Part shown: positions 13,941 to 48,360 of the stretch, in pieces
Position numbering within the stretch: position 1 is the first letter of the stretch
Layout of the letters: each line of letters starts with the position of its first letter
Assembly: GCF_025628885.1 (NCBI RefSeq)
Contig: NZ_JAOTIF010000014.1
Location: 1-64,000, forward strand
Reading direction: 5' to 3'
DNA length: 64,000 nucleotides
Origin: Paraflavisolibacter caeni
GTDB lineage: Bacteria > Bacteroidota > Bacteroidia > Chitinophagales > Chitinophagaceae
Notes under the pieces: model-generated
Database searches by the model: none
Told to the model about the DNA's origin: nothing
The model's input: the letters and a program-made list of their open reading frames with translations, nothing else
Program-made: the position numbers and the translations under genes

Positions 13941-13984
13941 CAAAAGTAGAAACTAGTAGGTCCCAAGCATCCTGCACTATCCTG
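13941..13984 (-). promoter_or_regulatory. activator-type promoter of SusC B'
   Basis: Minus-strand -7 element TACTTTTG (13948-13941). Two CAGGAT boxes at 13984-13979 and 13974-13969, spaced 10 bp, end 21 bp upstream of the -7 start and cover the place of a normal -33 box. The layout matches the promoters at 18907, 24393, 26023, 42499 and 48316. Confidence 0.7.
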
Positions 13985-14052
13985 CCTAGTTAAAATTTAG
14001 CGGTGAAATGGCCGCTTTTAGAGCCAGTTTGAGTAATTAAATCGATAAAAAA

Positions 14053-14078
14053 AGCCTGTCATTAGATAATGACAGGCT
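14053..14078 (-). terminator. terminator of the B SusCD unit
   Basis: Perfect 11-bp stem AGCCTGTCATT / AATGACAGGCT with a 4-nt loop, followed on the minus strand by a run of seven T. It starts about 30 nt after the SusD stop at 14110. Confidence 0.9.
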
Positions 14079-14109
14079 GCCAACGAAACTAAATATGCGA
14101 AAGTCTTAT

Positions 14110-15612
14110 TTAATATCCAGGGTTTTGTTCGTACAATCCTTTTTTGACATCCAACTCGGCTTGGGGAATTGGGTAGATGATGAAGTTTTTCTCGAAAGGC
14201 TTCATTACTTTTTGTACATCGTCTTTGGCAATCCAGGCTGGAATTACAGTTTCTACCAAACCACTTCTCACCAGGTCGTGCCAACGAGAACCTTCAGCTG
14301 CAAATTCCTTTCTTCTTTCTTCCATGAGTTGAGGCAGGGTAACACCGGATAACTGAGTAGTTAAACCAGCTCTTGCACGCACCTGGTTCACAATAGCATC
14401 AACATCTGCTTGTGTGCCAGGAGCACCATGCAGGATACATTCTGCTTTCAACATTAATATATCGGTATAGCGTTGTACGATAAAGTTGATTGGCCAGTCA
14501 ATCCTGTTATTGGTGGGCACTTTGGTGAGATCCACGTATTTCTTGAAGAAAGGGCGGTTTTCTGTTACGCCGTTGTATACGTAACTTCTTACTATAATAG
14601 AATCATCACGGCTATCGCCGGCTTCATAAGAATTCACCAGGTCAGAGGAAATAGGACGAATCGTTAAGCCGCCTTGTGTTGGTTTACCCAAAGATTGAAA
14701 CCATGTGTCGGGAACCAGTACCCATGGGAATGTTGAACCCAAGACAGGAGTTGCACCGTTGATATATTGGATATCAAATACTACTTCTGCATTGTTCTCA
14801 TTCGTGTATGAGAAAATATCCATGTATTTTGGAAGGAATGAAAAGCGGTTGCTTGCAATTATTTCATTCAACAATGTATATGCCTCATTCCATTCGTTCA
14901 AGCCCAAGCCCGGACCTTCGATACCATAGGTAGGACCAGAGCGGGTCATATGCACCAGGGCTAAAATACCTTTAGCTGACCATTTGGTAGGTTTGCCTTT
15001 ATCAGCAGCTGCATTAACAGCTGGTAAATTACCAGCAGCAAAAACCAGGTCGTCCATAATCAACTTATACACTTCACTTACCGGACTTCTAGGAATGGTC
15101 AAGGCTTCAGAAGATGAAACCGGATGATCAACAACCGGCACTTTACCAAACCATCTTACCAGGTCGAAGTAATAAAAGGCTCTCAGGAATCTTGCTTCAG
15201 CCTCCATGCGTGTTCTTAAGGCAGCATCAGTTACAATACTACTGCCATTATCCTTCAATTGTTGCAGTAATTCATTTGCTTTGAATACTCCATTAATATT
15301 CGAGTTATATGCTTCGATTACATATGGATTACTGGCGATGGTTTTATGAAAACTATTGATACCTTCCCAATCGCGAACACCACCATCTGATACTGCATAT
15401 AAATTATCTGATCTTGTTTCAGACAAGTTCAACTGCCTGTCGGGATAACCACGAAGGTTGTTGTAAACAGCGTTGGTGGCCTGTATAAAATCATTTTGTG
15501 TTTTGTAGAAGTTACCGGTAGCAACTGATGAAATGGGCACCTGGTCTAATTCCTTTTTACAAGAAGAAAACAGAACGGTTGCTGCTATAATTGGAAGAAA
15601 TACTTTTTTCAT
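14110..15612 (-). CDS. SusD/RagB-like glycan-binding lipoprotein (B)
   Basis: About 500 aa from ATG 15612 (MKKVFLPII); 18 codons of open frame upstream precede the signal peptide and are excluded. The lipobox FSSC is followed by KKELDQVPISS. Core block RFLRAFYYFDLVRWFGKVPV, then RYTDILMLKAECILHG, and C-terminal RRKEFAAEGSRWHDLVRSG with IYPIPQAELD and a final NPGY. It works as the surface-exposed lid of the SusC encoded 78 bp upstream. The two-gene unit ends with a strong terminator. Confidence 0.94.
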   Translation of the reverse strand: MKKVFLPIIAATVLFSSCKKELDQVPISSVATGNFYKTQNDFIQATNAVYNNLRGYPDRQLNLSETRSDNLYAVSDGGVRDWEGINSFHKTIASNPYVIEAYNSNINGVFKANELLQQLKDNGSSIVTDAALRTRMEAEARFLRAFYYFDLVRWFGKVPVVDHPVSSSEALTIPRSPVSEVYKLIMDDLVFAAGNLPAVNAAADKGKPTKWSAKGILALVHMTRSGPTYGIEGPGLGLNEWNEAYTLLNEIIASNRFSFLPKYMDIFSYTNENNAEVVFDIQYINGATPVLGSTFPWVLVPDTWFQSLGKPTQGGLTIRPISSDLVNSYEAGDSRDDSIIVRSYVYNGVTENRPFFKKYVDLTKVPTNNRIDWPINFIVQRYTDILMLKAECILHGAPGTQADVDAIVNQVRARAGLTTQLSGVTLPQLMEERRKEFAAEGSRWHDLVRSGLVETVIPAWIAKDDVQKVMKPFEKNFIIYPIPQAELDVKKGLYEQNPGY

Positions 15613-15690
15613 TGTGATGTTTTTTGAGTTCATGAGTTCACTAGTCACGAGTTGGTGAATTGTCACTCATTCACTTTTCAACTTTAAAGG

Positions 15691-18600
15691 TTAGAAGGTT
15701 AAGTTTACACCAAGGATCAAGGATTTTGGCAGAGGAAGTCCACCATAATCACCAGCTTCAGGATAAAGTCCGCTACCGCTTAAGTCAGTATTGGTAGCTT
15801 CAGGGTTAAAGCCTCCTTTGTATTTATCAGAGCCAAAGAAGTTTTCGGCAGTTGCATAGATGCGAGCTCCAGAAACTGCTTTACCCTTAAACAGCTGACC
15901 CAAATCGTATCCGAGTGTAATATTGCGTACACGCACGTAATCGGAAGGATATAACCAGTCTGTATTTTTAATACGGCCAAAGGTTGAATAAGCTTTACCC
16001 ACTTTACCAGCACCGGGGTCTGCTTCTGAACGCCATCTGTCTCTGAAGAAGCCTAAAGCATTATCCGTAAAGCCCTGGCCAGTTCTTCCTAATGCACGAC
16101 CGAAAAGCGAGTAAATAGATCCCCCCGACTGGCCTTGCACCAAAACACTCAGATCGAAACCTTTATAGCGCAGGTTGTTGGTAACACCCCATACATAGTT
16201 CGGATTAGGATGACCTACGATCACACGGTCATTAGCATCAATTACGCCATCACCGTTTGCGTCAACATATTTAGGATCTCCCACTGTTTGTGAACCGTAA
16301 AGGGCAGCGCCTTTACTAATATCGTCCTGAGTCAAGATGCCATCCTGACGCACCACATAAATGCTGTTCATGGGTTCCCCAACTTTCAAGATGCTATGCG
16401 AAATATCGAACAGAGATGGAATCAGAATTTGATCCTGGCCTTCACCTAATGCCAATACTTTATTGGAATTATGGCTAAAGTTTACGCTTGTATTCCATTG
16501 GAATTTACCCACGAGGTTGCGAGAAGTCAATTCTATTTCCCAGCCCTGGTTCCTTACTTCCCCTACGTTGCTCAACATAGAATTAAAACCAGTGAGACCA
16601 GGAATAGGCACATTCAACAGTAAATCTGTATTTAATTTATTGTAGTAGTCCAAAGATGCTGTAACGCGGTTTCTCAAAATACCGATGTCCAGACCGACAT
16701 CAAAAGACTCTGATTTTTCCCAGCTTAAGTCAGGATTCACTACGCTTGCAGGAGCCTGGCCAAAAGCTACAGCATTATTGAATGTATAATTAGATGCAGC
16801 TAACAGGGCTTGGGCACTGTAATCACCCACGTTGTAGTTACCAGATTTACCCCAGCTTGCTCTCAATTTAAGGTCACTGATCTGAGGAATTCCTTTCATA
16901 AAATCTTCCTCAGCTATTCTCCAGGCAGCAGATGCTGAAGGGAACCAACCCCATTTTGTATTGTCACCAAAACGGGAAGAACCGTCTCTTCTAATACTTG
17001 CAGAGAACAAGTATTTATCATTGAAGCCGTATTGAATTCTGCCAAAATATGAAAGCAGGACATTCTTTGTTTCTGTTGTATTCCCAGTAATGGCAGCTGC
17101 GGCGTTCAAAGTGTTCACAACGCTATTGCCGAAACCATTTTGAGAGTTCATTTGTGAACGATCAAATTTATCGGAGTTATAAGCAGCACCTGCCAAAAAG
17201 GAAACATCGTGGATATCATTATATACTTTATTATAAGACAGCGTGTTCTCATTAACGAATGTCTGTCTTCTGTAAGTGCTGTACGAACCTGAGGCTAGAG
17301 AAAGGTAATTAGCAGCCTGCCTTGCAGGAAGCTGACCAGAAATGGTGTAAGGAACGTAACCTTTTGAAGTGTTATCTGTATTATCGAAGTTAATGGTGCT
17401 CTTTAAAGCAAGGCCTTTAATGATCTGGTATTCACCAAACAAAGAAGTCAGTGTGCGGAAGCGTTTGGTCTCACCTATGGTTTGTTCCAGTTTACCTATC
17501 GGGCTATTGGGTGAGGTGCTCCATTTATACTGGCCATTGTTGCCGACGTTTGGATACAAGCCCATAGAATCTTCCTGGACAGGTGTCATACTCACCAATT
17601 GGTGCAGGATGTTGTCTTTACCTTCTATACCCGGATCATTGGTAATAGAATAGGTAGGTGAAAGGTTTAAACCAAGCTTTAACTTTTTGCTGGCATTGAC
17701 TTCAACATTTGCCCGTGCAGAATATGATCTGTAGTCCATGCCTTTAATCATACCTTCCTGGTCGGCAAAGTTTCCGGAGACATAATATTTTACGAATTCA
17801 TTTCCACCACTGGCGGATATTTGGTGATTTTGCACCAAGCCTTTTCTGAAGGCTTCGTTTTGCCAGTCGATGTAGCGCAAACCAGGATGGCCTGGCTGAG
17901 CCCAGCGGTCATCAGTCATGTAAGAAGTATTGACACCCCCTGGAGCAAGGCCTAAAATCACACGGCGCTCTTCGTTTGTCTGGCTAGCCGTCCTTCCGGG
18001 TCCGGAAGCTACCCACTGGGCATTGATCATTTCAGTTGCCCTGTCTACCCATTCATCAGCAGACAACATATCGAGTTTGCGGTTTGCCTCCGAAAAACCA
18101 ACGTAAGAGTTGAGGTTAATCTTTGCTTTACCACTTTTACCTTTTTTGGTGTTTATGATCACAACGCCATTGGCGGCGCGGGAGCCATAGATAGCTGCAG
18201 CAGAGGCATCTTTTAATACCTGGATTGATTCAATATCGTTCGGGTTGATGTTATCGAGGGGATTGCCGTTAGCGAAGCTACCTGATCCATTAGGAGCGGC
18301 CTGCGCCAAGGGAAAGCCATCAATCACATATAAAGGCTCATTGCCGGCTGTAACGGAGCCGGAACCTCTTACCTGAACACTCATGCCTTTTCCTAAAGCA
18401 CCACTGGTTTGCTTTACCTGTACACCAGCCAACTGACCGACCAAGGCCTGGTCTACACGGGAAACAGGCCGCTCGTTCAAGTTATCGGCGTTCAAGGAAG
18501 CTACCGCACCCGTGACGTTCTTTTTTTTCTGAGTACCATAGCCCACCACAACTACGTTCTCCAAGGAGTTTTGTTGGGGCACCATGGAAACAGCAAGCTG

Positions 18601-18876
18601 TTTTTTATTTGCGACCTGCACCTGTTGTTCGGCAAAACCGACATAGCTTACCACTAAAACGGCATCGGGAGAAGGCACATTGATCTGGAAGGAGCCATCT
18701 GCGCTTGTTTGGGCAGCGAGGTTTGAACCTTTCACCTTTACAGTTACACCTGCTAAAGGTTGTCCGTCTGCACCTGTGATTTTACCTGTAACCGGGAAAT
18801 TTTGGGCGAAAGCGCCAAAAGAGAATAAGAGAAGGGAGGCGAAGCCCAAGCTTCGCAGCACTGCGTTTTTTTTCAT
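15691..18876 (-). CDS. SusC/RagA-like TonB-dependent receptor (B)
   Basis: About 1061 aa from ATG 18876 (MKKNAVLRS); the 11 codons upstream fall between the -7 element and the true start. Signal peptide ends AFAQN. Regulatory-like domain VTGKITGADGQPLAGVTVKVKG, linker VVVVGYGTQKKKNVTGA, plug with LVGQLAGVQVKQ, VQVRGSGSVTAGNEPLYVIDGFP and IQVLKDASAAAIYGSRAANGV, barrel ending LGVNLTF with the usual terminal Phe. Its promoter has both the CRGGAT boxes and a 24-bp perfect palindrome, as does SusC A, so the two units are probably co-regulated. Confidence 0.95.
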   Translation of the reverse strand: MKKNAVLRSLGFASLLLFSFGAFAQNFPVTGKITGADGQPLAGVTVKVKGSNLAAQTSADGSFQINVPSPDAVLVVSYVGFAEQQVQVANKKQLAVSMVPQQNSLENVVVVGYGTQKKKNVTGAVASLNADNLNERPVSRVDQALVGQLAGVQVKQTSGALGKGMSVQVRGSGSVTAGNEPLYVIDGFPLAQAAPNGSGSFANGNPLDNINPNDIESIQVLKDASAAAIYGSRAANGVVIINTKKGKSGKAKINLNSYVGFSEANRKLDMLSADEWVDRATEMINAQWVASGPGRTASQTNEERRVILGLAPGGVNTSYMTDDRWAQPGHPGLRYIDWQNEAFRKGLVQNHQISASGGNEFVKYYVSGNFADQEGMIKGMDYRSYSARANVEVNASKKLKLGLNLSPTYSITNDPGIEGKDNILHQLVSMTPVQEDSMGLYPNVGNNGQYKWSTSPNSPIGKLEQTIGETKRFRTLTSLFGEYQIIKGLALKSTINFDNTDNTSKGYVPYTISGQLPARQAANYLSLASGSYSTYRRQTFVNENTLSYNKVYNDIHDVSFLAGAAYNSDKFDRSQMNSQNGFGNSVVNTLNAAAAITGNTTETKNVLLSYFGRIQYGFNDKYLFSASIRRDGSSRFGDNTKWGWFPSASAAWRIAEEDFMKGIPQISDLKLRASWGKSGNYNVGDYSAQALLAASNYTFNNAVAFGQAPASVVNPDLSWEKSESFDVGLDIGILRNRVTASLDYYNKLNTDLLLNVPIPGLTGFNSMLSNVGEVRNQGWEIELTSRNLVGKFQWNTSVNFSHNSNKVLALGEGQDQILIPSLFDISHSILKVGEPMNSIYVVRQDGILTQDDISKGAALYGSQTVGDPKYVDANGDGVIDANDRVIVGHPNPNYVWGVTNNLRYKGFDLSVLVQGQSGGSIYSLFGRALGRTGQGFTDNALGFFRDRWRSEADPGAGKVGKAYSTFGRIKNTDWLYPSDYVRVRNITLGYDLGQLFKGKAVSGARIYATAENFFGSDKYKGGFNPEATNTDLSGSGLYPEAGDYGGLPLPKSLILGVNLTF

Positions 18877-18906
18877 ACAGCCTACAATTAAGTGTTTTTC
18901 AGTAGG

Positions 18907-18950
18907 CAAGCTACATGATTCACCTAGCCCGATTATCCTGTACCATCCTG
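18907..18950 (-). promoter_or_regulatory. activator-type promoter of SusC B
   Basis: On the minus strand: boxes CAGGAT at 18950-18945 and 18940-18935, then a -7-like TAGCTTGC beginning at 18913, 22 bp beyond the boxes. The start codon lies about 30 bp further at 18876. No TTTG -33 box is present, so an activator on the boxes is likely to be needed. Confidence 0.65.
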
Positions 18951-18963
18951 CTTTAGGCCAACT

Positions 18964-18987
18964 TTTTACGCAAACGTTTGCGTAAAA
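18964..18987. promoter_or_regulatory. 24-bp perfect palindrome, LacI-type operator (B)
   Basis: TTTTACGCAAACGTTTGCGTAAAA reads identically on both strands; its core is ACGCAAACGTTTGCGT. The central CG and the GCAAACGTTTGC core match the known operator form of LacI/PurR-family regulators. Its centre is 25.5 bp from the distal CRGGAT box, exactly as at 24452-24473. No LacI-family gene is present in the window. Confidence 0.8.
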
Positions 18988-19040
18988 TCAAGAGCTTGTA
19001 TGATTTTGGTCAGATGACAGATACTACGGGGAAGAAAAAG

Positions 19041-19067
19041 AAAGGGCAGCCCGGAGGACTGCCCTTT
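19041..19067 (-). terminator. terminator of the A SusCD unit
   Basis: Nine-bp stem AAAGGGCAG / CTGCCCTTT with a 9-nt loop, followed on the minus strand by CTTTTTCTTC. It starts about 20 nt after the SusD stop at 19087. Confidence 0.85.
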
Positions 19068-19086
19068 AGAAATTATGCTTATTGAA

Positions 19087-21075: not shown

Positions 21076-21114
21076 TCTTTTAGTTTTTTTCAAATACACG
21101 AATCAATGTTAACA

Positions 21115-24100: not shown

Positions 24101-24366
24101 ACAGAAGCTTCCTGGCTGGTGTAACCAATAGAGCTAAACACTAAAATGGATTGAGCAGAAGGCACTGTGATGGTAAACGTTCCATCAGCTTTGGTCGTTG
24201 TGCCGGCGTTAGAACCTTTTACCTGGATGGAAACGCCAGCCAACGGTTGTCCATCAGCGCCGGTGATTTTACCGCTCACAGGAAAACTTTGTGCAAAACC
24301 ATAAAGGGAAAAAAGGAGAAAGAAACAGGGCATACCTAGCCCCCGAAGCAGTCGAAGAATTATCAT
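21115..24366 (-). CDS. SusC/RagA-like TonB-dependent receptor (A)
   Basis: 1083 aa from ATG 24366. Signal peptide ends GFAQS. Regulatory-like domain VSGKITGADGQPLAGVSIQVKG, linker VVVVGYGTRKKSDVTGA, plug with LQGRIAGVEA, IRLRGNRSLSASNEPLYVVDGFP and VDILKDASATAIYGVRGANGV, barrel ending IGAKLDL. Paralogue of 5672-8887 (shared PI-VF segment after the plug, SITGGS-like and YDPS blocks). First SusC downstream of the HTCS and the PL22-like gene. Its promoter has CRGGAT boxes plus a 22-bp palindrome. It is the likeliest main importer of the locus, judged only by position and promoter. Confidence 0.95.
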   Translation of the reverse strand: MIILRLLRGLGMPCFFLLFSLYGFAQSFPVSGKITGADGQPLAGVSIQVKGSNAGTTTKADGTFTITVPSAQSILVFSSIGYTSQEASVNGKSAIAIALKSADNNLQDVVVVGYGTRKKSDVTGAVSSISGEKLRTVQTTNLTQSLQGRIAGVEATPSGFRPGTGSSIRLRGNRSLSASNEPLYVVDGFPVSYTIDDMNPADIESVDILKDASATAIYGVRGANGVVQITTKKGKAGKISVNYQGSQSIESIIRPIQVFDASQLVDAQRQAFFADSLYTRDIKKRSATNSLYYYPDALSDMALFRNRFGSEEQWNSIKDAYTWEVYDPVNKIYRAKKRATTPEEKALLQNLQFMGGMRTDSIDIYDPSRIKSYDWLDNVGIRNGSTTNHSISVTGGSDRIKSSFSAGYFNQKGIEYGQDYTRYSIGASNDFKAARYLTFGISVNYTNATTNTSTSSYGNAIGMIPMVTPYDSAGNWVLIPNKDDQIRSAINDHNTVFDETKTNRIFGNVYGELTLFKGLKYRTMFGLDTRNSRQGKFDGSQSSIQLGSPAKASRTIINASSWVYDNILTYNTTIKSNHTINVTLLQELQNLNRTDTLIMSANNLIFESQKWYSLNRNTDALVTGSGSYAAARYMSYMGRVEYGFRNKYLLTVSNRYDNSSVLSEGNKGAWFPSASVAWQIDRENFFRSQSVLNSAKLRMGIGKVGNASIPPYQTGGPLAFTNYNWGNGQAAIGSAPLTFKTPDLGWEKTTTTNVGIDFGLLKNRINGVIDLYKSTTTDQLQQRSIPTANGVGYLFFNLGKVENKGIEVTLNTQNIVSRDFRWSTDFVFTKNKEKIVDIDGSGNSNYANLWLIDQPLQVYWGYKQEGIFQYSDTAKGGALADYYWKKSGNKGNVNYLPGRIKIFDANGDTAMSPADRIVLGSHNPDFTASIGNTLSYKNFDLNFLIHFHVGGLYRVPRPSLVGRYQTFEVNYWTPSNPSNEYQQPTSTSDIPFGWEAITYTKATYAKVKNITLSYRVPQQLTGKANINNLSFYISAVNPILIHGYSTYDPETVPYKEFPGSTTNNTGPTSYSYRSYVIGAKLDL

Positions 24367-24392: not shown

Positions 24393-24437
24393 CTAAACTA
24401 TCTATTTAGTATACACGAACTATCCTGCACCGTCCTG
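24393..24437 (-). promoter_or_regulatory. activator-type promoter of SusC A
   Basis: Minus strand: CAGGAC (24437-24432) and CAGGAT (24427-24422), 10 bp apart, then a -7-like TAGTTTAG beginning at 24400, 22 bp beyond. The start codon is at 24366. Confidence 0.65.
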
Positions 24438-24451
24438 CATCGGTATATTTT

Positions 24452-24473
24452 TTTACGCAAACGTTTGCGTAAA
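24452..24473. promoter_or_regulatory. 22-bp perfect palindrome, LacI-type operator (A)
   Basis: TTTACGCAAACGTTTGCGTA plus two further A completes a perfect palindrome sharing the 16-bp core ACGCAAACGTTTGCGT with 18964-18987. The centre lies 25.5 bp beyond the distal CRGGAT box and 62.5 bp from the -7 start, the same as in the B promoter. Confidence 0.8.
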
Positions 24474-25977: not shown

Positions 25978-26022
25978 AACTTTTAATTGTATTGGCAAGC
26001 ATTCAATGTGCCTAAGCATTTG

Positions 26023-26067
26023 CCAAGTTATTTAAATATCACACCGGGACTATCCTGAACTATGCTG
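26023..26067 (-). promoter_or_regulatory. activator-type promoter of the PL22-like gene
   Basis: Minus strand: CAGCAT (26067-26062) and CAGGAT (26057-26052), then a -7-like TAACTTGG beginning at 26030. The spacing of 22 bp equals that of the SusC A and B promoters. It supports the start at 25977. Confidence 0.6.
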
Positions 26068-26635: not shown

Positions 26636-29600
26636 TTAGAAAAGGTCGCTTTTACCCTGCTGGCTGAACTTTTTTGGTGTCAGTCCAAATTGTTTCTGGA
26701 ACATCCGGCTGAAACTTGTGGAATCGGAATAACCTACTATAAAGGCAATTTCTGAAACTGAAGACTGACCTTCAAGCAGTAGTTCCGCAGCTTTGTTTAA
26801 CCGGATCGTAGTTACAAATTCGTGGACTGACTGGTTTGTCAGCGCTTTGATTTTACGATAGAGTTGCGTCCGGCTTAAAAATAACTGACTGGCCAACCAT
26901 TCCACACTAAGGTCTTTGTTTGACATATTCGATTCTATCATGCCGGTTGCTTTGCTTAAAAAAGCTTTATCGGCAGCATTGGTACCCACCAGACGGGTAT
27001 TAAATCCGGTAGACTGATTGAACAATTGCCGAAGCTTTTTGCGCGACTCAATGAGGTTTTTAATGCGAACCAATAGCAAGGCTGAGCTGAAAGGCTTGCC
27101 GATATAGGCATCAGCCCCGGTTTCGTAACCTTCCATCTGGGATTGGTCTGACTGCCGTGCTGTTAACAGGATTACTGGTATGTGACTGGTTTTTTCGTCA
27201 GTTTTCAACTTTTGGCAAAGTTCAAGCCCATTGAGTCCCGGCATCATGATGTCGCTGATGACAAGGTCGGGTATGGTTTCAATGGCTTTTTCGAAACCCT
27301 CGGATCCGTTTTGGGCTTCAATAACCAGATAATCAGCGATTAAGTTCATTTTAAGGTAGTTCCTCACATCAGCATTATCCTCCACCACCAGCACCACGGT
27401 TGGATCAGCATTGGTTTCCTGCTCCTGAACTAATGGAGTAAACTCCTCAGAACTATCGCTCATTTGAAAGCCGGACGTCCCTGCTTTTTGAAACAGTCCG
27501 GTGTTTTCATCTGCGAGATTACTTAGCATAACAGTAAAGCAGGTTTCGATGTTAGGTCCACTATTTACTGTAATGATACCCTTATGCAGCGTTACAAGTT
27601 CCTTGGTTAATGCCAAGCCAACTCCTGTGCCACCGCTATTGTTATGTTCCTTACTTGCTACCTGATAAAAGGGTTCAAAAATCTGACCGATCAAGTTGGC
27701 TGGAATACCTACTCCATTATCCCTTACCGATAATACAACCTGGCCCGGATTTTCTGAAGCAGCGGCCAAAGACACCGTAATGCGGCCACCCACACTAGTA
27801 AATTTAAATGCGTTGGAAAGTAGATTGTATAGTATTTTGTCTACGACATCCGCATCAAATCCAAATTCCAGCGCCTCGATATCTGTTTGAAATGTAAAAT
27901 TTATATCCTGTTGCTGTGCCTGGAACTCAAAGGCCGCCATGATATTACGAACAAATGCAACAATATCCTGCCTGGTTATATGAAGAGGCATGTTGCCTGA
28001 TTCCAGCTTCCTGAAATCAAGGAACTGGTTGATCAAGCCCAGCAGCCGGCGGGCGTTGCGGTGCATGATTGCATAATAATCCCTCACTTTTTCAGTGGAT
28101 AGTTTTCCGGCTAAAAGTGACTCCAGGGGATCAATGATCAATGTTAATGGTGTGCGGAATTCATGAGAGACATTGGTGAAAAACCGGGATTTAAGCTCGT
28201 CCAGTTCACGCACTTTTTCGGCTTTTAATCTTTCGGTGAGTATCTGCTGGTTATACTTTTGGCGGGCAAGAATCAGCCTGTATACCAGATAGCCGGCCAG
28301 TATTAATAAAAAGGTGTAGCACAAATAGGCCCACCATGTTCTCCACCAGGGTGGCAGCACGATTATTTCAAGCGTGGCTGGAGCAGGGTTCCAAACGCCG
28401 TCACTGTTGGATGCTTTCACTTTGAAGATGTATTTACCCGCTGGCAGGTTCGAATAGGAAGCTATTCGTCTTGATGCATCCGTTTGTATCCAATCTTTGT
28501 CCTGCCCCTCCAGCATGTAGGCGTATTGGTTTTTTTCCGGATTTGAATAGTGGAGTGCTGCAAATTCAATGGAAAAACTACGATCCTCATAGGTAAGCGT
28601 AATTTTCTTTGTCATGTTTATAGGTGCGGATAATACTACCCTCCCATTTATCATCTGCCCGACACCAACAGGTTTGTTCAGCACCTGAAACTCTGTTAAA
28701 ACTACGACCGGGAGAAAGGGGTTGTCAGCGATCTCACCGGGATGGAATGAAACAAAACCTTCCATATTACCAAAATATAGATCACCCGTGGTTTTATCGA
28801 TGCATCCAGAGCCTTCCATAAAATCGTAACCCTGGATACTTTCCTGAACAGCATAATTTCGAATGACGCCTGTTCTAACCGTAAGTTTTGACAAGCCTTT
28901 TTTGTGACTGATCCAGATATTGCCCTGTTGATCAGGCAATAGCTTCGCAATATATTGATCTGCAAGCCCATCCTGCTTTGTATATAATTTGACTTTGCCA
29001 GATCGGGGGTCTATGCGGCAAAGTCCATTTGCCGTACCAATCCAGATATTCCCCAGACGGTCTTCGGTGATGGAATAAACACGCTCATCGGGTAATTTGG
29101 GATTAACGCCATCACCATTATAACTGACTGTATCTGTCCAAGCATGGGTTTTTGGATCGCGCTTTATTTGGATAACACCTAAATATTCAGTTCCAATCCA
29201 TAAGTTATTTTTTGAATCAAAGAACAAGCAAACAGCACTTGGTTTGCCCAAATATTTGTTCAATACCTGTTTTTCAAATGTATTGTTCTTGCGGTTGTAT
29301 TTGAGCACATCATTGAAAGTGCCAAACCAAACTGAACGGTCCGCCGGATCTTCGGCTATGGATAAGAACCGGTAGTTATTTGAATTAATTCCGGTGTTTT
29401 CATGATAGTAATTGATCAATTTATTGCTCCTTACATCGTACCTGTCGAGCCCTGTCCGGTACCCAACCCATATATCACCATAGCTGTCTTTAAAAATTGA
29501 TCTAACACTTTCGCCTGCAGGCCCTGGCATAAAGCGCTTTTCAACTTTGGTTTTTGAGTTTATAAAAACTAATCCATTATCCTGGGTACCCAGCCAAATA

Positions 29601-30313
29601 CCGGAACTGTCAGCCAAAATTGCGCGGATGGGTGCATTTACCGAGGTTTTGTTATCTGATGAAACAGAAAAACTATGGAAAGGTTTGGCATTCAGATCTA
29701 ATTTGTTGACACCACCTGTAGCGGTGCCAAGCCAAAGGATCCCGCAATTATCCTTGTAAACACAATAAACATTATTGTCATCAAGTCCACCTACATTGTT
29801 GGGTTTTGTCCCAAATACGATATGCTCTTTGGTTGGTGAAAGCTGAAATGCTCCAATATGCTCCTGCAGATCTTTTGCTGCAATTTGAAAAGCCAATAAA
29901 TTACGCAGGCGGTTGGTAGAGTCGCGAATGGAGCTTGGTAATTGGTTAGGTGTAAAACGTGTAAAATTGTCTGTTTGGTAGTTGTACCGACAAATAGAAG
30001 AGTTGAAAGTGGCAATCCATAAAGTGCCGTTTCTATCCTTGTAGATATAATGTATTCTGTTGTTGGCTATTGAATTCGTATCGCCGGGAATCGTGCTGTA
30101 AACCTTGAATTTGTATCCATCGTAGCGACAGAGCCCATTATACGTACCAAACCACATATATCCGTACTTGTCCTTAACAATACTTGATACTGTATTCTGT
30201 GCCAGTCCATTTTTTACCGTCAGATATTCGAAATTAAGTTTTTGCGCAGTTAAGTGCTGGCCTCCAGAAACCATGAAAAACAGTAAGGTGAATATTTTCA
30301 GATCGATACGCAT
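26636..30313 (-). CDS. hybrid two-component system sensor-regulator (HTCS)
   Basis: About 1225 aa from ATG 30313 (MRIDLKIF); a TTG nine codons upstream is less likely. Order: signal peptide; periplasmic Reg_prop repeats (about 25-600; WFGTYNGLCRYD, WLGTATGGVNKLD, WIGTANGLCRID); a Y_Y_Y domain (about 585-650); one membrane segment (about 655-680); histidine kinase with phosphoacceptor His in VSHEFRTPL (about 713) and HATPase (NLLSNAFKFT, GVGIP, GGTGVGL); receiver with VVEDN and phosphoacceptor Asp in VISDIMMPG (about 1017); and an AraC-type double HTH at the end (LFLSRTQLYRKIKALTNQS; IAFIVGYSDSTSFSRMFQKQFG). HTCS proteins bind an oligosaccharide in the periplasm and switch on their own utilisation genes. 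It probably controls the genes around it. Only about ten blades are visible, fewer than the usual fourteen. Confidence 0.95.
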   Translation of the reverse strand: MRIDLKIFTLLFFMVSGGQHLTAQKLNFEYLTVKNGLAQNTVSSIVKDKYGYMWFGTYNGLCRYDGYKFKVYSTIPGDTNSIANNRIHYIYKDRNGTLWIATFNSSICRYNYQTDNFTRFTPNQLPSSIRDSTNRLRNLLAFQIAAKDLQEHIGAFQLSPTKEHIVFGTKPNNVGGLDDNNVYCVYKDNCGILWLGTATGGVNKLDLNAKPFHSFSVSSDNKTSVNAPIRAILADSSGIWLGTQDNGLVFINSKTKVEKRFMPGPAGESVRSIFKDSYGDIWVGYRTGLDRYDVRSNKLINYYHENTGINSNNYRFLSIAEDPADRSVWFGTFNDVLKYNRKNNTFEKQVLNKYLGKPSAVCLFFDSKNNLWIGTEYLGVIQIKRDPKTHAWTDTVSYNGDGVNPKLPDERVYSITEDRLGNIWIGTANGLCRIDPRSGKVKLYTKQDGLADQYIAKLLPDQQGNIWISHKKGLSKLTVRTGVIRNYAVQESIQGYDFMEGSGCIDKTTGDLYFGNMEGFVSFHPGEIADNPFLPVVVLTEFQVLNKPVGVGQMINGRVVLSAPINMTKKITLTYEDRSFSIEFAALHYSNPEKNQYAYMLEGQDKDWIQTDASRRIASYSNLPAGKYIFKVKASNSDGVWNPAPATLEIIVLPPWWRTWWAYLCYTFLLILAGYLVYRLILARQKYNQQILTERLKAEKVRELDELKSRFFTNVSHEFRTPLTLIIDPLESLLAGKLSTEKVRDYYAIMHRNARRLLGLINQFLDFRKLESGNMPLHITRQDIVAFVRNIMAAFEFQAQQQDINFTFQTDIEALEFGFDADVVDKILYNLLSNAFKFTSVGGRITVSLAAASENPGQVVLSVRDNGVGIPANLIGQIFEPFYQVASKEHNNSGGTGVGLALTKELVTLHKGIITVNSGPNIETCFTVMLSNLADENTGLFQKAGTSGFQMSDSSEEFTPLVQEQETNADPTVVLVVEDNADVRNYLKMNLIADYLVIEAQNGSEGFEKAIETIPDLVISDIMMPGLNGLELCQKLKTDEKTSHIPVILLTARQSDQSQMEGYETGADAYIGKPFSSALLLVRIKNLIESRKKLRQLFNQSTGFNTRLVGTNAADKAFLSKATGMIESNMSNKDLSVEWLASQLFLSRTQLYRKIKALTNQSVHEFVTTIRLNKAAELLLEGQSSVSEIAFIVGYSDSTSFSRMFQKQFGLTPKKFSQQGKSDLF

Positions 30314-30404
30314 GGAAAAAGCAATCCGTCGAAAATACAATTATTTCAATAATCGAGTTCCGGCTTAGATAAGTAAACATATTTCCATACCTGCAGATTC
30401 GGAG

Positions 30405-39091: not shown

Positions 39092-39130
39092 ATGGGGCAT
39101 CTTAATCAATAATAGTTGAAAATGTAAATT

Positions 39131-39209: not shown

Positions 39210-39263
39210 CAGGTTATCTCATTTGCTCTTTTTTTATTACATAGAGAACGATAGCTGCTTTAT

Positions 39264-39298
39264 AAAATAGCAAAGAGGTTTCCCTCTCTGCTATTTTT
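39264..39298 (-). terminator. terminator of the GH2 unit
   Basis: Long stem AAAATAGCA-a-AGAGG / CCTCT-c-TGCTATTTT with a 4-nt loop and A/T runs at both ends, about 95 nt after the GH2 stop at 39393. One mismatched pair lies in the middle. Confidence 0.85.
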
Positions 39299-39392
39299 CC
39301 ATTTCATGACTTATTAGGGTTTAAGATGTTAAAGTTAATTTAGCATTTTAAACCCTTTATAATAATAACTAATTAAAAAGTCTATTGTAGAC

Positions 39393-42300: not shown

Positions 42301-42425
42301 TCTCCAACAAACAGCTTCCAGCCGGGGTTAAAGTTGTACTTTACCCTTTGTGCATTCACGGATTGCACAGCAACACTGGTGATGAGTGCTATTATCCAAC
42401 AAAGGGTAGTTAATGTTTGTCTCAT
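39393..42425 (-). CDS. GH2 beta-galactosidase, secreted
   Basis: 1010 aa with signal peptide ending VNAQR. GH2 order: sugar-binding jelly roll (WYRKHF, FEGIRQAGEFYVNGKRIGMHENGVTAF, YGGICKNVFLH), an Ig-like domain, then the TIM barrel. Acid/base Glu is in IIFYECGNES (about 434) and nucleophile Glu in IVFSETNTHHRG (about 577). Further Ig-like domains follow (VELKVNGQSLGYG; KGFIADGHDLALVEVEVVDAQGNRCP), and a C-terminal discoidin-like part (about 850-990) may bind sugar. It probably removes beta-galactosyl ends in the periplasm. It has a CRGGAT-type promoter inside the 148-bp gap after GH28 and ends at a terminator. Confidence 0.92.
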   Translation of the reverse strand: MRQTLTTLCWIIALITSVAVQSVNAQRVKYNFNPGWKLFVGDPADAYKPDFNDASWKAITLPRAWNEDDAFKKDIVDLSTGIAWYRKHFKLPAASKGQKVFIEFEGIRQAGEFYVNGKRIGMHENGVTAFGFDITDLVNFGNVGNVIAARIDNDWNYKEKATNTKYQWEDKNFNANYGGICKNVFLHITPKIYQTLPLFTNLGTTGVYVYADNFNIKGKFATIHAESEVKNESNKVQQLVYEVSVKDMNGTVLKTFTADQATIAPGETKIVKAAAVVNGLNFWSWGYGYLYDVQTTLKVAGSAVDVVTTKTGFRSTAFKDGMIYLNDRVIMVHGYAQRTSNEWPAIGMSVPAWLSDYSNKLMVESNGNLVRWMHITPWKQDVESCDRVGLMQAMPAGDAEHDVTGVRWDQRKAVMRDAIIYNRNNPSIIFYECGNESISEAHMQEMKAIRDQYDPNGGRAIGSREMLDSKVAEYGGEMLYSNKSAHIPMWAMEYSRDEGLRKYWDDYTPPYHKDGDGPDEYRSAATNTIQKRPDAKVYNRNMESHAVENVKRWYEFWLERPGTGKRVSSGGVNIVFSETNTHHRGAENYRRSGEVDALRIKKQNFYAHQVMWDGWVNPEKPRIHIIGHWNYAPGVQKNIYVISSAEKVELKVNGQSLGYGEKSDGFLYTFKNVEWKAGNIIAIGYDIAGKQVCTAQINTVGTPVAIRLTNIKSPKGFIADGHDLALVEVEVVDAQGNRCPTALNTINFSLQGPAEWRGGMAQGPDNCILAQSLPVENGVNRILIRSTSKPGLVTLKASADSLKSAAISITAQPFATENGLTKVLPSTALPYNLERGPTPSTPSYNIMRRPVAIVKATAGANTDSAFASFDDNELSDWVNDGQLSTAWIEYELEREATVNEVTLKLNNFRSRVYPLIITVDGKEAFNGKTATTLGYYTVVCNPQRGKKVKIQLATLSEDQGGNKMVEVTGKKLDDGVARDDAKAKGTLSIIEAEIYESLPAQNLSAAANSR

Positions 42426-42498
42426 TTTTTAATGTAATAGTTAATGAATTGAATTAATAATGCGAGTGATTGGACTTTGGGTTCTTTACATACAATAA

Positions 42499-42543
42499 TA
42501 AAAGTACTTTCCTGCTGATGCTCAACTGTCCCGTACCATCCCG
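42499..42543 (-). promoter_or_regulatory. activator-type promoter of the GH2 gene (CGGGAT variant)
   Basis: Minus strand: CGGGAT (42543-42538) and CGGGAC (42533-42528), 10 bp apart, then -7 TACTTTTA beginning at 42506. It is similar over about 66 bp to 48316-48381, including ATAAG-GTCAAA blocks upstream of the boxes (42544-42565). Confidence 0.65.
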
Positions 42544-42573
42544 AAACTGTAGCTTTGACACTTATATCATTTT

Positions 42574-43917: not shown

Positions 43918-44035
43918 GTTTAAAATGATTTCAGATCTGATAGCCTCAATTTTAATTCACAACTCCTTTTGGAGCGTTAATGACACAGTTGATTTTCTAT
44001 GATAAACTTCACAGGTGGCAATGCAATGAGTTCAG

Positions 44036-45160
44036 CTATTGCCAGGCTAAAGAGCATTTACCAATGGCATAAAAGTTCTTATTGTTGACTTTAGTCATGG
44101 CAGTATAAATTACCGTAAATGTTCCATCTTCTTCTTCAATAGCACAAAGTGGTGTTCGTGTGTAATGGTCGCCTGCCTCGGCCCACAAGTTTTTAGGAGA
44201 TTGTACTTTCACCCGGGTTTCCCTGCTCCAATTCAGGCCATCATTTGAGATGCTGTATCCAATTTCATGATCGCCAAAGGAATCAAAAATCATCACATAA
44301 CGCCCATCTTTTAATTTGTACACGATCTCATTTTCCATAAATACATCCGCTACGGGTATTGGGTTAAAACCTTCGGGCATTCTTGTCCATGGTCCGGTTA
44401 ACTTGGGAGCGAAAGCAATGCCTGTTGGCCATGGGCCTTTAGGTGTGTGGTAATGACCATCATACATCGAAAACCATGTATTGCCTACTTTATAAGGATT
44501 AAAACAGGCAACTGCCTGTTGGCCTTCCCAAGGCTGGGAGTGTTCATCTGGTTCCATCATAATGCCCATATCGGCATAGGGGCCTGCAATGCCATCACGG
44601 CCTTTTACAACAGACTTAGCCCGCCATATCCTTCCCTCATAATCATTGCCGGCAATTTCTCCTTTAGTGCTGTCTCCTGCCCGGTAAGCCACATAAAAAA
44701 TATTCCAGGCATCTTCTTCTTCATTAAACACTACGCCTGTCACCCACACTTCGGAGCGTGGATTAGAGGGTGTCCTGCCCGGGATACTATTTACTATGGT
44801 GGATTGTCGTTTCCAGTTGATGGCATCATTGCTGGTCCAATAGGCAATGCGCATATCCCTGTGCGGATGTTCAAACATTTCATTTACAAACATGTGGTAC
44901 ACATCATTGATCTTCACCACCTGCCCAGTTTCAAATCCTGAACGATTGGCACTTGCCAAAACATCCGGATGATCAGCACTGATAACAGGACCTTTGTGAT
45001 CAGTTACCATCTTTAAAATTTTACCATCCGAATTTTTGGAACTCATATTTACAACAGGAGAGGTTTTGACTTTTTGAGCGCACAACTGTCCCAGGTTGCC
45101 TAATAACAAAACAAAAAAGGCAATAAATTTTATAGAGGGATTTAATTTTTTCTCCAACAT
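44036..45160 (-). CDS. secreted five-bladed beta-propeller glycosidase-like protein
   Basis: 374 aa; signal peptide ends LCAQK. Blade pattern: GFETGQVVKINDVYHMFVNEM, MRIAYWTSNDAINWKRQ, SEVWVTGVVFNEEEDAWNIFYVAYR, GNTWFSMYDGHYHTP, MENEIVYKLKDGRYVMIFDSFG and IGYSISNDGLNWSRE. This is a GH43/GH32/GH117-like propeller. Probable acidic residues are the Glu of FETGQ, the Asp of MYDGH and the Glu of MENEIV. I cannot give subfamily or substrate. It is encoded 10 bp after the GH27 gene, so it belongs to that operon and probably works on the same galactose-containing chain. Confidence 0.65.
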   Translation of the reverse strand: MLEKKLNPSIKFIAFFVLLLGNLGQLCAQKVKTSPVVNMSSKNSDGKILKMVTDHKGPVISADHPDVLASANRSGFETGQVVKINDVYHMFVNEMFEHPHRDMRIAYWTSNDAINWKRQSTIVNSIPGRTPSNPRSEVWVTGVVFNEEEDAWNIFYVAYRAGDSTKGEIAGNDYEGRIWRAKSVVKGRDGIAGPYADMGIMMEPDEHSQPWEGQQAVACFNPYKVGNTWFSMYDGHYHTPKGPWPTGIAFAPKLTGPWTRMPEGFNPIPVADVFMENEIVYKLKDGRYVMIFDSFGDHEIGYSISNDGLNWSRETRVKVQSPKNLWAEAGDHYTRTPLCAIEEEDGTFTVIYTAMTKVNNKNFYAIGKCSLAWQ

Positions 45161-45170
45161 AAAGAATCGT

Positions 45171-46334
45171 TTAATTGATTTTTAATACAACTATTCCATG
45201 TTTGGGTATGGTGATTTTTTGCACCTTTCCTATTGTACCCAAGTCCTTGTGCAACCACAAATCTCTAAGCTTGCTTTTGTTACTTATGCCTAATTTTTGT
45301 GCACTTATTGTAAATACCTTTTCTTCTTCTCCCCTGTTCAGGATTGCAATTGCGTTCTTCTTGCTGCTGTTTTCAAGTTGTTTCATCCATACTTCAATGT
45401 CATTGTCTTTTAGAATTCTTCTTGCCTGCATATAGCCACTGTCCTGATTGAGTGCGATGACTTCTTTATTGGTGAGGATCTCTACCGTTTGTCGGGTCAT
45501 GTTGCGTAAGTCATTGCCGGCAAGCAGTGGTGAATTCATCATGCACCACATGGAAAAATGAGTCTTGTCTTCTTCATAGCTCATCCCTCTGCCTACCTGC
45601 AGCATATCCATGTCATTGTAGTGGCCGGCAGAAGCATATTGATACAGATCGGCATTCAGGTCAATGATCTTCATTATGGAAGAAAACCTGGGTTCTATAT
45701 CTCCAGATATCCTCCAGGAGTCAGCCTTTTGAATGGCCCAAGTACCAGGAAATTGCCAGCGGCAGACATTGAATAATATATTTGGGTCAATGGCTTTTAC
45801 TGTATCAATGATCTTCAAGTATTCTGTTTGTTCATCCAATTTCATTTGTTGGCCACCACACCAGTCAACTTTTAAAAAGTTATAGCCCCATTGTTTAAAG
45901 AATTGGTTACAGTCTTTCCCGATATGTCCATAAATTCCTACTCCTATACCATTTTTATCCTTGTCATAAATTGAACCACAGGTATTACTGCCAGCATCGG
46001 TATAAATACCCGCTTTCAGACCTTTACTGTGTATGTAATCAGCTAAGGATTTCATGCCGGAGGGGAATTTCTTTACATCAGCAAACAGCTTACCGGAGGA
46101 ATCCCTGCCACCGAAGTAGCCATCATCGATGTTGATGAATCGGTAACCAGCTTCATACATCCCGGAAGAAACCAGGGCATCTGCTTGTTCCCTGATCATT
46201 TTTTCATCAATATGTACGCGGAAGTGATTCCAGCTGCTCCAGCCCATGATTGGAGCTTTGTGTCTTTGAGCATATAATGAGCTCATTGCTGACAATAATG
46301 CAAAACAGATCAAAAAGCGTCTAAGTGTCTTCAT
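45171..46334 (-). CDS. GH27 alpha-galactosidase
   Basis: 387 aa; signal peptide ends LYAQR. GH27 TIM barrel: APIMGWSSWNHFRVHIDE, YRFINIDDGYFGGRD, FPSGMKSLADYIHSKGLKAGIYTDAG, with nucleophile Asp in NFLKVDWCGG (about 155), acid/base Asp in WRISGDIEPRF (about 210), then YNDMDMLQVG and FSMWCMMNSPLLAGNDL. A short C-terminal beta domain closes the protein. Length is usual for the family. It releases terminal alpha-galactose, or beta-arabinopyranose in some members, from side chains in the periplasm. It is the first gene of the GH27-propeller-GH28 run. Confidence 0.95.
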   Translation of the reverse strand: MKTLRRFLICFALLSAMSSLYAQRHKAPIMGWSSWNHFRVHIDEKMIREQADALVSSGMYEAGYRFINIDDGYFGGRDSSGKLFADVKKFPSGMKSLADYIHSKGLKAGIYTDAGSNTCGSIYDKDKNGIGVGIYGHIGKDCNQFFKQWGYNFLKVDWCGGQQMKLDEQTEYLKIIDTVKAIDPNILFNVCRWQFPGTWAIQKADSWRISGDIEPRFSSIMKIIDLNADLYQYASAGHYNDMDMLQVGRGMSYEEDKTHFSMWCMMNSPLLAGNDLRNMTRQTVEILTNKEVIALNQDSGYMQARRILKDNDIEVWMKQLENSSKKNAIAILNRGEEEKVFTISAQKLGISNKSKLRDLWLHKDLGTIGKVQKITIPKHGIVVLKIN

Positions 46335-46581
46335 TTTACAGATCCAGTTTCTATAGTTTAAAACAAAATTTGGTTATATATTTTATGCTCACTCTTTCAA
46401 TTTTCATAAAGCACATCAGGATTGAGCTTTAACCCAGGCAAAATTCATACAATACCTTTTTTGCGAGCAATAAAACAGATGTCTGAATGAGCAAAAACCA
46501 AAAACTAATATAAACAGAGTATATATTTCATGATCAGTATTCATTAAAATTGAATACAAAACAATTGATAAAATTATAAAA
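46335..46581. other. AT-rich gap upstream of GH27, no gene
   Basis: Together with the following terminator this gap is over 300 bp. No CRGGAT box pair, palindrome or 79-bp element is present, and no confident -7 match. A minus-strand open frame crossing the terminator (46416-46679) has no family features and is rejected. Confidence 0.5.
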
Positions 46582-46603
46582 GCCTCCTGTAGAAACAGGA
46601 GGC
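46582..46603 (-). terminator. terminator of the esterase/deacetylase gene
   Basis: Perfect 9-bp stem GCCTCCTGT / ACAGGAGGC with a 4-nt loop, followed on the minus strand by TTTTATAATTTT. It starts 45 nt after the stop at 46648. Confidence 0.88.
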
Positions 46604-46647
46604 AATGTTTGCTATGATGATTACGATACTGCCATTTAAAACTCTTT

Positions 46648-48115
46648 TTAATAAGAAACTGTATACTTATCCAAATCACGCATGGCGATCACCTTAAAAT
46701 GATGTTCTTTTATGTATTGCAGATATTCCGTAAAAACTTCCGCAGATGTGGTATAATCAGGGTGTGCGATGTCGGGAACGCCATGTATGGTGAAAACTAA
46801 AATCTGGCCAGGCTGTAAACTTTTCAGTGCATACATTGTCCGCTCTCTGAGTTTTTCAGTAGAGCCCATTGTGTAACTGGGTATCACCAAGTGTCCGTCT
46901 TGTTTTGGTTCATAAAATTTACTCCCTCCAGCACGGGCATAACGAAACCCCATGTCTTTTAATACAACTTGTGACAACGAATCTGCTCTATTACCGGGGT
47001 AGGCAAATGAAATAGGTTTAGGAATGCCATTCTCCCTACACTTCGTTTCGATATAACTGATTTCCTGCATCATCTGATCACGATTCAATTTAGTCATGTT
47101 CTTGTGGTGCCCAGTGTGATTACCGATTTCAAAGCCCATTTTATAGAGTTCAAAGATCTGTGGCCATTTCATGTAATAGACGGAATCAACCGGGGATTTC
47201 CAGGGCATTTTACAGACAAAAAAAGTTGCGTCAAAATCATATTTCTTTAAAAGAGGGGAGACAATTGTGTAATGACTTATCTCAGCATCGTCGAAACATA
47301 ATACAACTATAGGATCTTTAAATGGTTCATTTTTGTTTTCTGCGCACTGGGTATTGCCATTTGAATGCAATTTTTTTATGGCTTCAGCATACCTTTTACC
47401 CAATTCTCTTGCTGATGGCGTACTAAAATGAAGCTTATCGCCTTTGTCAGTTAAATCTTTTGCGGAAACCACTGCTGTATTAGGCACCTGTTTGGGCAAC
47501 TGGTTAATGACACCATTGATATAATTGGTTCTATTGAAGTAACCGATCTCGCCAGCCACAAATGGCAGGTTCGGTTGCTGCAGATCGGTGCGAAGCCGGT
47601 TGATCAACGTTTCTAATTTATCCAGGTAAAGTTTTGCATGCAATGAGTCATTATCCGATTCACCCTGGTGCCAGAGTATGCCTTAATACGCCCTGTTTCA
47701 TGGCTATCCGTGCCCGTTTTATTACGTCTTCATAGGGGTGAAAAACATTTAAATAAACAGCATTGGGCTCCCATACCTTGATTGGTGAACCACCAAGTGC
47801 ACAAGGTATCAGGCCTATTCTTATGTTTTTTCTTTTACCAAGCATTTCTTTTGCAAAACTGATTGCAGGACCAACTCCCACCGATTTTGGTTTGTCAAAA
47901 TGAACGGGGTCTGTGGCAGGCACCCAGTGATTTTGAGAATCAAGCATCAGTATTTGAGGGTGTACTTTTTTGCTTTCTGAATCTAAAGGTCCTCTTCCTG
48001 CCATATTGGATTGCCCGATCAGCAGGTACAAATGGAAGTTGCTGTCAATTCTTTCTTTCTGCGCCATGGTAAGCAATGAGGCGAATAATAAACAAATGCT
48101 GAAGATTGATTTCAT
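46648..48115 (-). pseudogene. SASA-type acetylesterase + NodB-type deacetylase fusion, frameshifted
   Basis: Two frames make one gene. 48115-47660 encodes a signal peptide (LLTMAQK) and the first half of a sialate-O-acetylesterase-like SGNH domain (IGQSNMAGRG, nucleophile Ser about 33). It ends in a false tail LRHTLAPG. One frame over, the DNA at 47682-47640 reads GILWHQGESDNDSLHAKL, the conserved second block, and continues to DKGDKLHFS (Asp/His of the triad). A NodB domain follows: CFDDAEISHY, EIGNHTGHHKNM, SFAYPGN and the end FTIHG. The break is near 47681-47686 (one base extra or two missing). Intact, the protein would remove acetyl groups from glycans by two routes. A sequencing error cannot be excluded. 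The second part has only a TTG near its start, so it is unlikely to be expressed alone. Confidence 0.8.
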
Positions 48116-48168
48116 TTTTCTTTACACATTATAGATATACCATTTTACGAACTTGTTAACGTACACAC

Positions 48169-48291
48169 TTAAGTGTAAAAATTTATCCTTCCCCGACTAG
48201 TAGATGGCTTATTACGTTTACTTACAGGCAATGCGAATGCTTGTGCTGAGATAAAAATTAAATAGGATTGAAGAGTAAGATATTTCTTCAT
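48169..48291 (-). pseudogene. 40-codon signal-peptide ORF, gene remnant or small secreted peptide
   Basis: ATG 48291 to TAA 48169. The peptide starts MKKYLTLQSYLIFISAQAFA, a clear Sec signal peptide with an A-x-A cleavage site, and continues LPVSKRNKPSTSRGRINFYT before the stop. It begins 32 bp after a complete CGGGAT-type promoter and is followed 53 bp later by the esterase gene, so it is first in that transcript. The shortness and loss of sequence right after the cleavage site suggest the 5' end of a deleted secreted enzyme. A genuine 20-residue basic secreted peptide is possible. Confidence 0.45.
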
Positions 48292-48315
48292 ATAGCAATT
48301 TATTGATAGGAATTG

Positions 48316-48360
48316 TAAAAGTACTTTTCCGAACGTGATGAACTATCCCGTACTATCCCG
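48316..48360 (-). promoter_or_regulatory. activator-type promoter before the remnant/esterase unit (CGGGAT variant)
   Basis: Minus strand: CGGGAT (48360-48355) and CGGGAT (48350-48345), 10 bp apart, then -7 TACTTTTA beginning at 48323. This is the cleanest example of the box pair in the window. It is related to the GH2 promoter over about 66 bp. Confidence 0.7.

Follow-up and report, generated by a model that had tools for sequence, protein, structure and literature searches.

A 64,000-nucleotide stretch of Paraflavisolibacter caeni DNA (the window, by which we mean that whole stretch) carries a rhamnogalacturonan cluster in which three SusC-type genes, a PL22-like gene, a GH2 gene and an esterase unit are each preceded by a two-box promoter site. 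An earlier note on this DNA had placed six such sites on the minus strand and had described each as two 10-bp direct repeats near CRGGATrGTn, followed by a TAnnTTTG-like -7 box. All six exist where they had been placed and have this composition. The sites are listed below, together with the gene for a hybrid two-component system (HTCS) protein that the earlier note had proposed as their regulator.

Site B', minus strand: boxes 13965-13984, 16-bp gap, -7 box TACTTTTG at 13941-13948; SusC-type gene start at 13909
Site B, minus strand: boxes 18931-18950, 17-bp gap, weak -7 box TAGCTTGC at 18906-18913; likely start codon of SusC-type gene at 18876
Site A, minus strand: boxes 24418-24437, 17-bp gap, -7 box TAGTTTAG at 24393-24400; SusC-type gene start at 24366
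PL22-like gene site, minus strand: boxes 26048-26067 (first box CAGCATAGTT), 17-bp gap, -7 box TAACTTGG at 26023-26030
HTCS gene, minus strand: 26636..30340, complete as judged by its domains
GH2 gene site, minus strand: boxes 42524-42543, 17-bp gap, -7 box TACTTTTA at 42499-42506; gene start at 42425
Esterase-unit site, minus strand: perfect boxes 48341-48360, 17-bp gap, -7 box TACTTTTA at 48316-48323; start of first open reading frame (ORF) at 48115

The distance from the boxes to the -7 box had been given as 21-22 bp. Counted between the second box and the TA of the -7 box, it is instead 16 bp at B' (and at a seventh site described below) and 17 bp at the others. For the PL22-like gene, 25977 is the more plausible start, because the mechanical ORF start at 26019 lies too near the -7 box. 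Compared with the pair CRGGATNGTNCRGGATNGT, one window site has no mismatch and the other five have one each. When up to three mismatches are allowed, the window holds seven matches, where shuffled sequences predict 1.12; the additional match (52275) carries three mismatches. The spacing is constant in the sense of a fixed gap of 16-17 bp, which is backed by the promoters of other genomes. The single -7 boxes vary in strength. That of site B, for example, matches at four of six scored letters, and shuffling of the downstream bases yields p values of 0.23 (B), 0.11 (A), 0.05 (PL22-like gene) and 0.003-0.009 (the remaining four).

Constancy over six unrelated genes had been the original argument against chance, but the genes are not all unrelated. 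A, B and B' precede SusC-type paralogues, an identical palindrome recurs at equal distance in A and B, and the promoters of the GH2 gene and the esterase unit look alike. Fewer than six independent events are therefore represented, and outside evidence is needed. The palindrome itself, TTACGCAAACGTTTGCGTAA, is perfect at 18966-18985 and at 24453-24472, in each case 15 bp upstream of the boxes, and none is expected in shuffled sequences. An imperfect relative lies upstream of the seventh site, outside the window (near C6:64.33 kb). We take the palindrome to be of LacI type, and an additional regulator, LacI-like, may control the SusC promoters.

The site in this genome and in related genomes

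The genome of P. caeni comprises 7.01 Mb in 89 contigs, with the window on the contig that we call C6. Only eight pairs of the CRGGATNGTNCRGGATNGT type occur genome-wide at one mismatch or fewer, and seven of these lie in this one cluster; the eighth falls inside an ORF of roughly 720 residues on contig C42. The seventh cluster site is perfect and lies just beyond the window (C6:64301-64319), with 16 bp to the -7 box TAATTTCG. It is positioned 333 bp before a fasciclin-domain gene beginning at 63986, upstream of a SusC/D pair. Directly after its promoter region, and also outside the window, are a LytTR response regulator and its histidine kinase (C6:64691-66484).

Sites are also found at other genes of this genome. 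By similarity, contig C12 carries an operon of the rhamnose transporter gene rhaT with rhaEW (at C12:78217), mutarotase, isomerase and kinase genes, whose promoter reads CATGACAGTCCATGATAGTC, 17 bp, TACTTTTA. Twenty-three P. caeni loci with one to three mismatches were examined, 18 of which are inside ORFs of at least 250 residues. Two of the remaining five have the right -7 box, one preceding a GH106 alpha-L-rhamnosidase gene and the other a GH88-family gene.

Pairs at one mismatch or fewer are present at least once in 134 of 294 genomes of the family. This count is not a main argument, because the pattern read backwards also matches (in about 16 genome rows, counted by eye) and many forward matches are single and possibly coding. 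Two genomes of one genus have seven sites each, all within about 80 kb in G018, and six on one contig plus one on another in G187. Four genomes of a second genus have 8, 10, 6 and 4 sites, scattered over many contigs of fragmented assemblies. The flanks of the sites in both genera exhibit the same gap and the same -7 box. A logo was made from 60 of 62 aligned sites, including the seven of the P. caeni cluster; two were dropped for a poor -7 box, and candidates with two or three mismatches had entered the alignment only when a -7 box was present. Apart from the two boxes and the -7 box, the logo shows little conservation, and none at -21.

Four products of the G018 cluster score over NCBIfam cut-offs (RhaT, the bifunctional rhamnulose-phosphate aldolase/dehydrogenase, rhamnose mutarotase and a BT4151-type galactosidase), and an isomerase, a kinase and a BT4145-like rhamnosidase score under them. 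One of its sites starts 79 bp upstream of the rhaT start codon.

The same arrangement recurs at rhaT in other bacteria. From a scan of species genomes, we took the best 80 of 576 candidate rhaT loci, which come from Niastella, Longitalea, Pedobacter, Mucilaginibacter, Niabella, Dyadobacter and others. A matrix built from the 60 logo sites finds a site at a score of 8 or more in 71 of these 80 foreign loci, versus 2 of 80 reversed-sequence controls. The nine loci lacking a site are L190, L213, L231, L255, L256, L261, L264, L266 and L268, and they include all three Dyadobacter loci. When boxes are chosen by box sequence alone, 69 of the 80 loci pass, and every one of these 69 has a -7 box (at least five of six letters) at offset 36 or 37. 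The equivalent figure for the other sites, those of the window included, is 46 of 51 at the expected offsets. TTTG is absent from every second box in both sets (69 rhaT and 51 other sites). Among 67 non-redundant rhaT promoters, no column outside the boxes and the -7 box reaches 0.7 bits, and nothing is conserved at -21. Finally, with a matrix trained on nothing but 66 foreign rhaT promoters, the seven P. caeni cluster sites take ranks 1-5, 7 and 9 of about 160,000 positions (C6:1-80000).

These observations bear on whether the similarity within the window could be chance or the product of promoter duplication inside the cluster, as the duplicated look of the A/B and GH2/esterase promoters might suggest. 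The same boxes and spacing stand before rhaT and other promoters of many genera, and the foreign matrix picks out the cluster sites. In our view this conservation across genomes refutes chance and duplication, to which we assign a negligible probability. The logo, the 67 rhaT promoters and the spacing counts likewise uphold the earlier proposal of a regulator site held at a fixed distance from the -7 box in place of the -33 element.

Candidate readers of the site

To find proteins that accompany the site, all ORFs of at least 120 residues in the 80 foreign rhaT loci and the P. caeni one were clustered, and the first 40 clusters were inspected. The most widespread families over these 81 loci are rhaT (81), rhaEW (75), isomerase (72) and kinase (72), followed by a regulator of about 343 residues (48) that combines a GntR winged helix with a LacI-like Peripla_BP_3 domain. 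No other regulator family is as widespread in the inspected clusters. P. caeni has three copies of this hybrid: T1 near rhaT (C12:69890-70999), T2 (C18:13301-14329, 59% identical) and T3 (C67:202573-203553, 42%). The candidate T1 (L188:3887-4999) matches PF00392 at 41.0 bits (cut-off 27) and PF13377 at 37.0 bits (cut-off 26.5), which is the architecture of AraR. A MocR-type aminotransferase sensor was not found in it; MocR models match the N-terminal part only, far below their cut-offs.

The regulator gene is tied to rhaT by position and by co-occurrence. In the 48 of 81 loci where clustering places it, it is divergent from rhaT in 23, upstream on the same strand in 5 (gaps 36-441 bp for these 28) and 4-6 kb away in the other 20. 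For the 80 foreign loci, it is detected 48 times by tblastn and 47 times by clustering. Among 117 family genomes, 54 have both genes, 57 neither, 4 rhaT only and 2 the regulator only at E<=1e-80 (Fisher 7e-26); at 1e-35 these numbers are 54, 53, 4 and 6. In 25 of the 54 genomes with both genes the best regulator copy is no more than 600 bp from rhaT, and in 33 it is within 10 kb.

The regulator is also associated with the site itself. Of 47 rhaT loci with a regulator in reach, 46 have a site, compared with 25 of 33 loci without a regulator (p 0.003); for full-length loci the counts are 37 of 37 and 17 of 23. Around 20 regulator copies in ten site-bearing genomes (290 kb) there are 14 two-box matches, one of which (L290) is also in the matrix training set, and the reversed sequence gives none. 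Seven of the 14 lie no more than 0.5 kb from a regulator gene; these seven include at least one rhaT promoter (L295) and one match with a poor -7 box (L300).

Because the same site precedes the rhamnose genes of related bacteria, a GntR-type reader is most likely, rather than the neighbouring HTCS. We consider it probable that the window sites are operators of this family of GntR winged-helix, LacI-like-sensor proteins with AraR architecture, which is tied to L-rhamnose catabolism in this branch of the Bacteroidota. The boxes occupy the stretch where the Bacteroidetes promoter consensus has its -33 element. This placement, the exact distance to the -7 box and the absence of TTTG from the second box point to an activator that touches RNA polymerase. 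Specifically, two DNA-binding domains of the regulator would sit head to tail on the two repeats at the -33 place. The sensor would bind a sugar in the cytoplasm, with L-rhamnose or one of its derivatives as the likeliest ligand, and the ligand-bound protein would recruit RNA polymerase to the -7 box in a class II-type activation. The window cluster would then respond to a signal from inside the cell, in addition to any external cue sensed by the HTCS. The window enzymes fit such a signal: its GH28 proteins are close to the models for the BT4153 rhamnogalacturonidase and the BT4155 galacturonidase, both below equivalog cut-offs.

Most known GntR- and LacI-type sugar regulators, AraR included, are repressors. 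The hybrid might read the boxes as a repressor that blocks RNA polymerase until a sugar releases it. PDB titles call AraR a repressor, and the boxes do overlap the promoter; however, an exact spacing of 16-17 bp and a second box devoid of a -33-like TTTG are needs of an activator, not of a repressor. We therefore regard repression as unlikely.

Several observations weigh against assigning the sites to this family. No regulator copy is near the window's cluster. Four of the 117 genomes have rhaT without the regulator (E<=1e-80), and the 25 site-bearing rhaT loci mentioned above have none in reach. Generic 10-bp repeats with a -7 box are not enriched beside 20 further regulator copies, 19 of which are less than 46% identical to T1 (11 versus 20 in the reversed control). 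The matrix from rhaT promoters alone scores position 29459, in the HTCS gene, at 12.5, above the PL22-like site (11.0), and position 73811 at 5.4, above site B (4.8); because the best reversed control reaches 6.8, site B is unsupported by that matrix alone. The boxes of the P. caeni rhaT promoter have T for G at the third base of each box (CAT, compared with CRG in the window), so two paralogues may be involved. Moreover, the associated site is a direct repeat, not a palindrome such as AraR binds. GntR proteins in general usually bind palindromes (PMC4494728), although single FadR/HutC members bind direct repeats according to the same source.

For the distant members of the family, we rejected a rule that every paralogue adjoins 10-bp repeats, given the generic repeat counts above. 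A matrix scan of the same 20 further copies gave six matches, one within 0.5 kb of a regulator gene.

A different regulator could read the boxes while the hybrid near rhaT uses another site. The operators of DeoR-type rhamnose regulators have a periodicity of 10-11 bp (PMC3870299), and 33 of the 80 rhaT loci are without a hybrid in reach, 25 of them with a site. On the other hand, no other family was as recurrent in the first 40 clusters, among which no DeoR model was run, and the promoters contain no second strongly conserved element. This arrangement appears very unlikely.

The earlier note had named the HTCS as the natural reader and had marked that link as inference. In this proposal, the HTCS would read the boxes through its AraC-type domain, one monomer spanning two adjacent major grooves, and would activate all seven promoters. 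The gene is complete and lies inside the cluster, and HTCS control of neighbouring clusters is common (PMC3878776). We pursued the proposal through the P. caeni genome, nine site-bearing genomes, 35 stretches from site-bearing genomes and the 80 rhaT loci. The window HTCS is one of many such proteins in its own genome, and its best relatives in the nine genomes are 31-41% identical. One of the 35 stretches (L181) holds an HTCS and two others (L152, L160) hold AraC-type domains. In the 80 rhaT loci, 71 of which carry the site, no match was found to the window HTCS (E<=1e-40) or, with one query sequence rather than a family model, to its AraC-type domain (E<=1e-5). The 100 kb around the G018 cluster of sites contain no HTCS. 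Published HTCS motifs are direct repeats with an average tandem distance of 21 bp (PMC3878776). The repeats here have a period of 10 bp, with no conserved column at -21 in either the 60 mixed or the 67 rhaT sites. Thus, the same site and spacing at rhaT loci with no HTCS or AraC-domain match leave the link unsupported, and we judge it quite unlikely that the HTCS reads these boxes; it could act on the cluster via another site.

Two further types of candidate were set aside. PF12833 was mapped in three genomes as a marker of other AraC-type regulators: one such gene is close to the G187 cluster (L152), and a G116 stretch (L160) holds more. Among the matches listed, none falls within the matching cluster of G018 (2490000-2590000). 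LacI genes near the G018 and G187 clusters (L185, L186) were dropped because the boxes are not palindromic.

Relation to known systems

The operators of Bacteroides thetaiotaomicron HTCS proteins (PMC3878776) resemble the sites in that they too are direct repeats, placed before SusC/D and glycan-degradation operons that include rhamnogalacturonan loci. They differ in tandem distance, and HTCS genes are missing from the site-bearing rhaT loci. The AraC-type RhaR of Bacteroides (PMC3878776, PMC3870299) likewise controls an L-rhamnose operon from a direct repeat, but with a 21-bp periodicity; here the period is 10, the linked protein is a GntR/LacI hybrid, and none of the 80 rhaT loci matched the single AraC-type query. 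The DeoR-type RhaR of other phyla (PMC3870299) also governs a rhamnose regulon through direct repeats, and the period of 10 would fit its 10-11-bp periodicity, but it belongs to another protein family than the hybrid; DeoR genes were not searched by model here.

Among GntR proteins, the AraR subfamily (PMC4494728 and PDB matches) shares the winged helix, the LacI-like sensor and a role in sugar catabolism, but is a repressor by its PDB titles, whereas the sites here are direct repeats in an activator position. MocR/GabR-type proteins (PMC5320631) share the winged helix, direct-repeat operators, activation and a frequently divergent orientation to the target, but sense through an aminotransferase fold in place of the LacI-like domain. 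We recognised no description of the motif, or of the regulator at rha genes, in the literature covered, outside which lie RegPrecise, most subscription papers and the logos of PMC3878776 and PMC3870299. Excerpts of PMC11253607, PMC12125979 and PMC5698469 contain no 10-bp-period site.

If the assignment to the hybrid family is correct, a polysaccharide cluster bearing its own HTCS is also, or instead, under a regulator encoded elsewhere, which most likely senses a sugar released inside the cell. The GntR/LacI-hybrid type would then extend the set of rhamnose regulator types given in PMC3870299 (AraC, DeoR and LacI). The operator, with its two boxes, spacing and -7 box, is distinctive enough for regulons to be recognised in many soil Bacteroidota genomes.

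Paralogues and other cluster genes

T1 and T2 are both candidate readers of the window sites, and T3 is less likely. T2 may read the window sites and T1 the rhaT site, or one protein may read both. The recognition helix offers a possible basis for such a division. In the 48 rhaT-linked regulators, counted with no correction for relatedness, the helix RDTAEKGY goes with T at the third base of both boxes in 38 of 41 cases. The single RDTVEKAY (L251) goes with G at that base of both boxes (CAG). As exceptions, one RDTVEKGY and one RDTVEKSY also go with T, and one locus gave no helix match. In a tree of the regulators, copies from the genus of G018, G187 and G116 fall near L251. The tree has no support values, and its root is meaningless, being a midpoint root with one row of only 11 residues.

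The helix of T2 is RDSVEKAY. The T2 gene (on contig C18; 9298-10329 in stretch L281) is accompanied by two promoters with the box geometry (sites at 10436 and 16608 of that stretch), in which the second box is CAGGAyGGTT and the first box is altered. T2 is divergent from an operon for iron-type alcohol dehydrogenase, DapA-like, PdxA-like and DUF1537-type kinase-like proteins, followed by SusC/D, and its substrate may be four-carbon acid sugars.

A broader, tentative proposal, which we regard as possible but somewhat doubtful, is that Chitinophagaceae- and Sphingobacteriaceae-type bacteria have diversified GntR/LacI-hybrid activators that read 10-bp direct repeats standing in for the -33 element and precisely spaced from the -7 box. 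The recognition-helix residues of each paralogue would pick the third box base (TAEKG with CAT, VEKA with CAG), and rhamnose catabolism and rhamnogalacturonan clusters would thereby be wired to related but separable cytoplasmic signals atop HTCS control. Such a regulator would be of a type outside those listed for rhamnose, an activator with the AraR architecture. One close copy (L287 in G116, gene 9245-10264) lies, as judged by eye, beside arabinose isomerase-, epimerase- and kinase-like genes, so the family may extend beyond rhamnose.

Other products of the cluster are less readily classified. The PL22-like protein matched no family model at its cut-off. The proteins at 245-2071 (608 residues) and 44036-45160 (374 residues) match no Pfam family at the threshold used, the latter having a faint match to mannan phosphorylases. 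The SASA esterase domain at 46648-48115 is divided between an ORF at 47660-48115 and one at 46648-47643 that also has a polysaccharide deacetylase domain. The esterase thus looks broken, in keeping with the label of remnant that this unit had been given.

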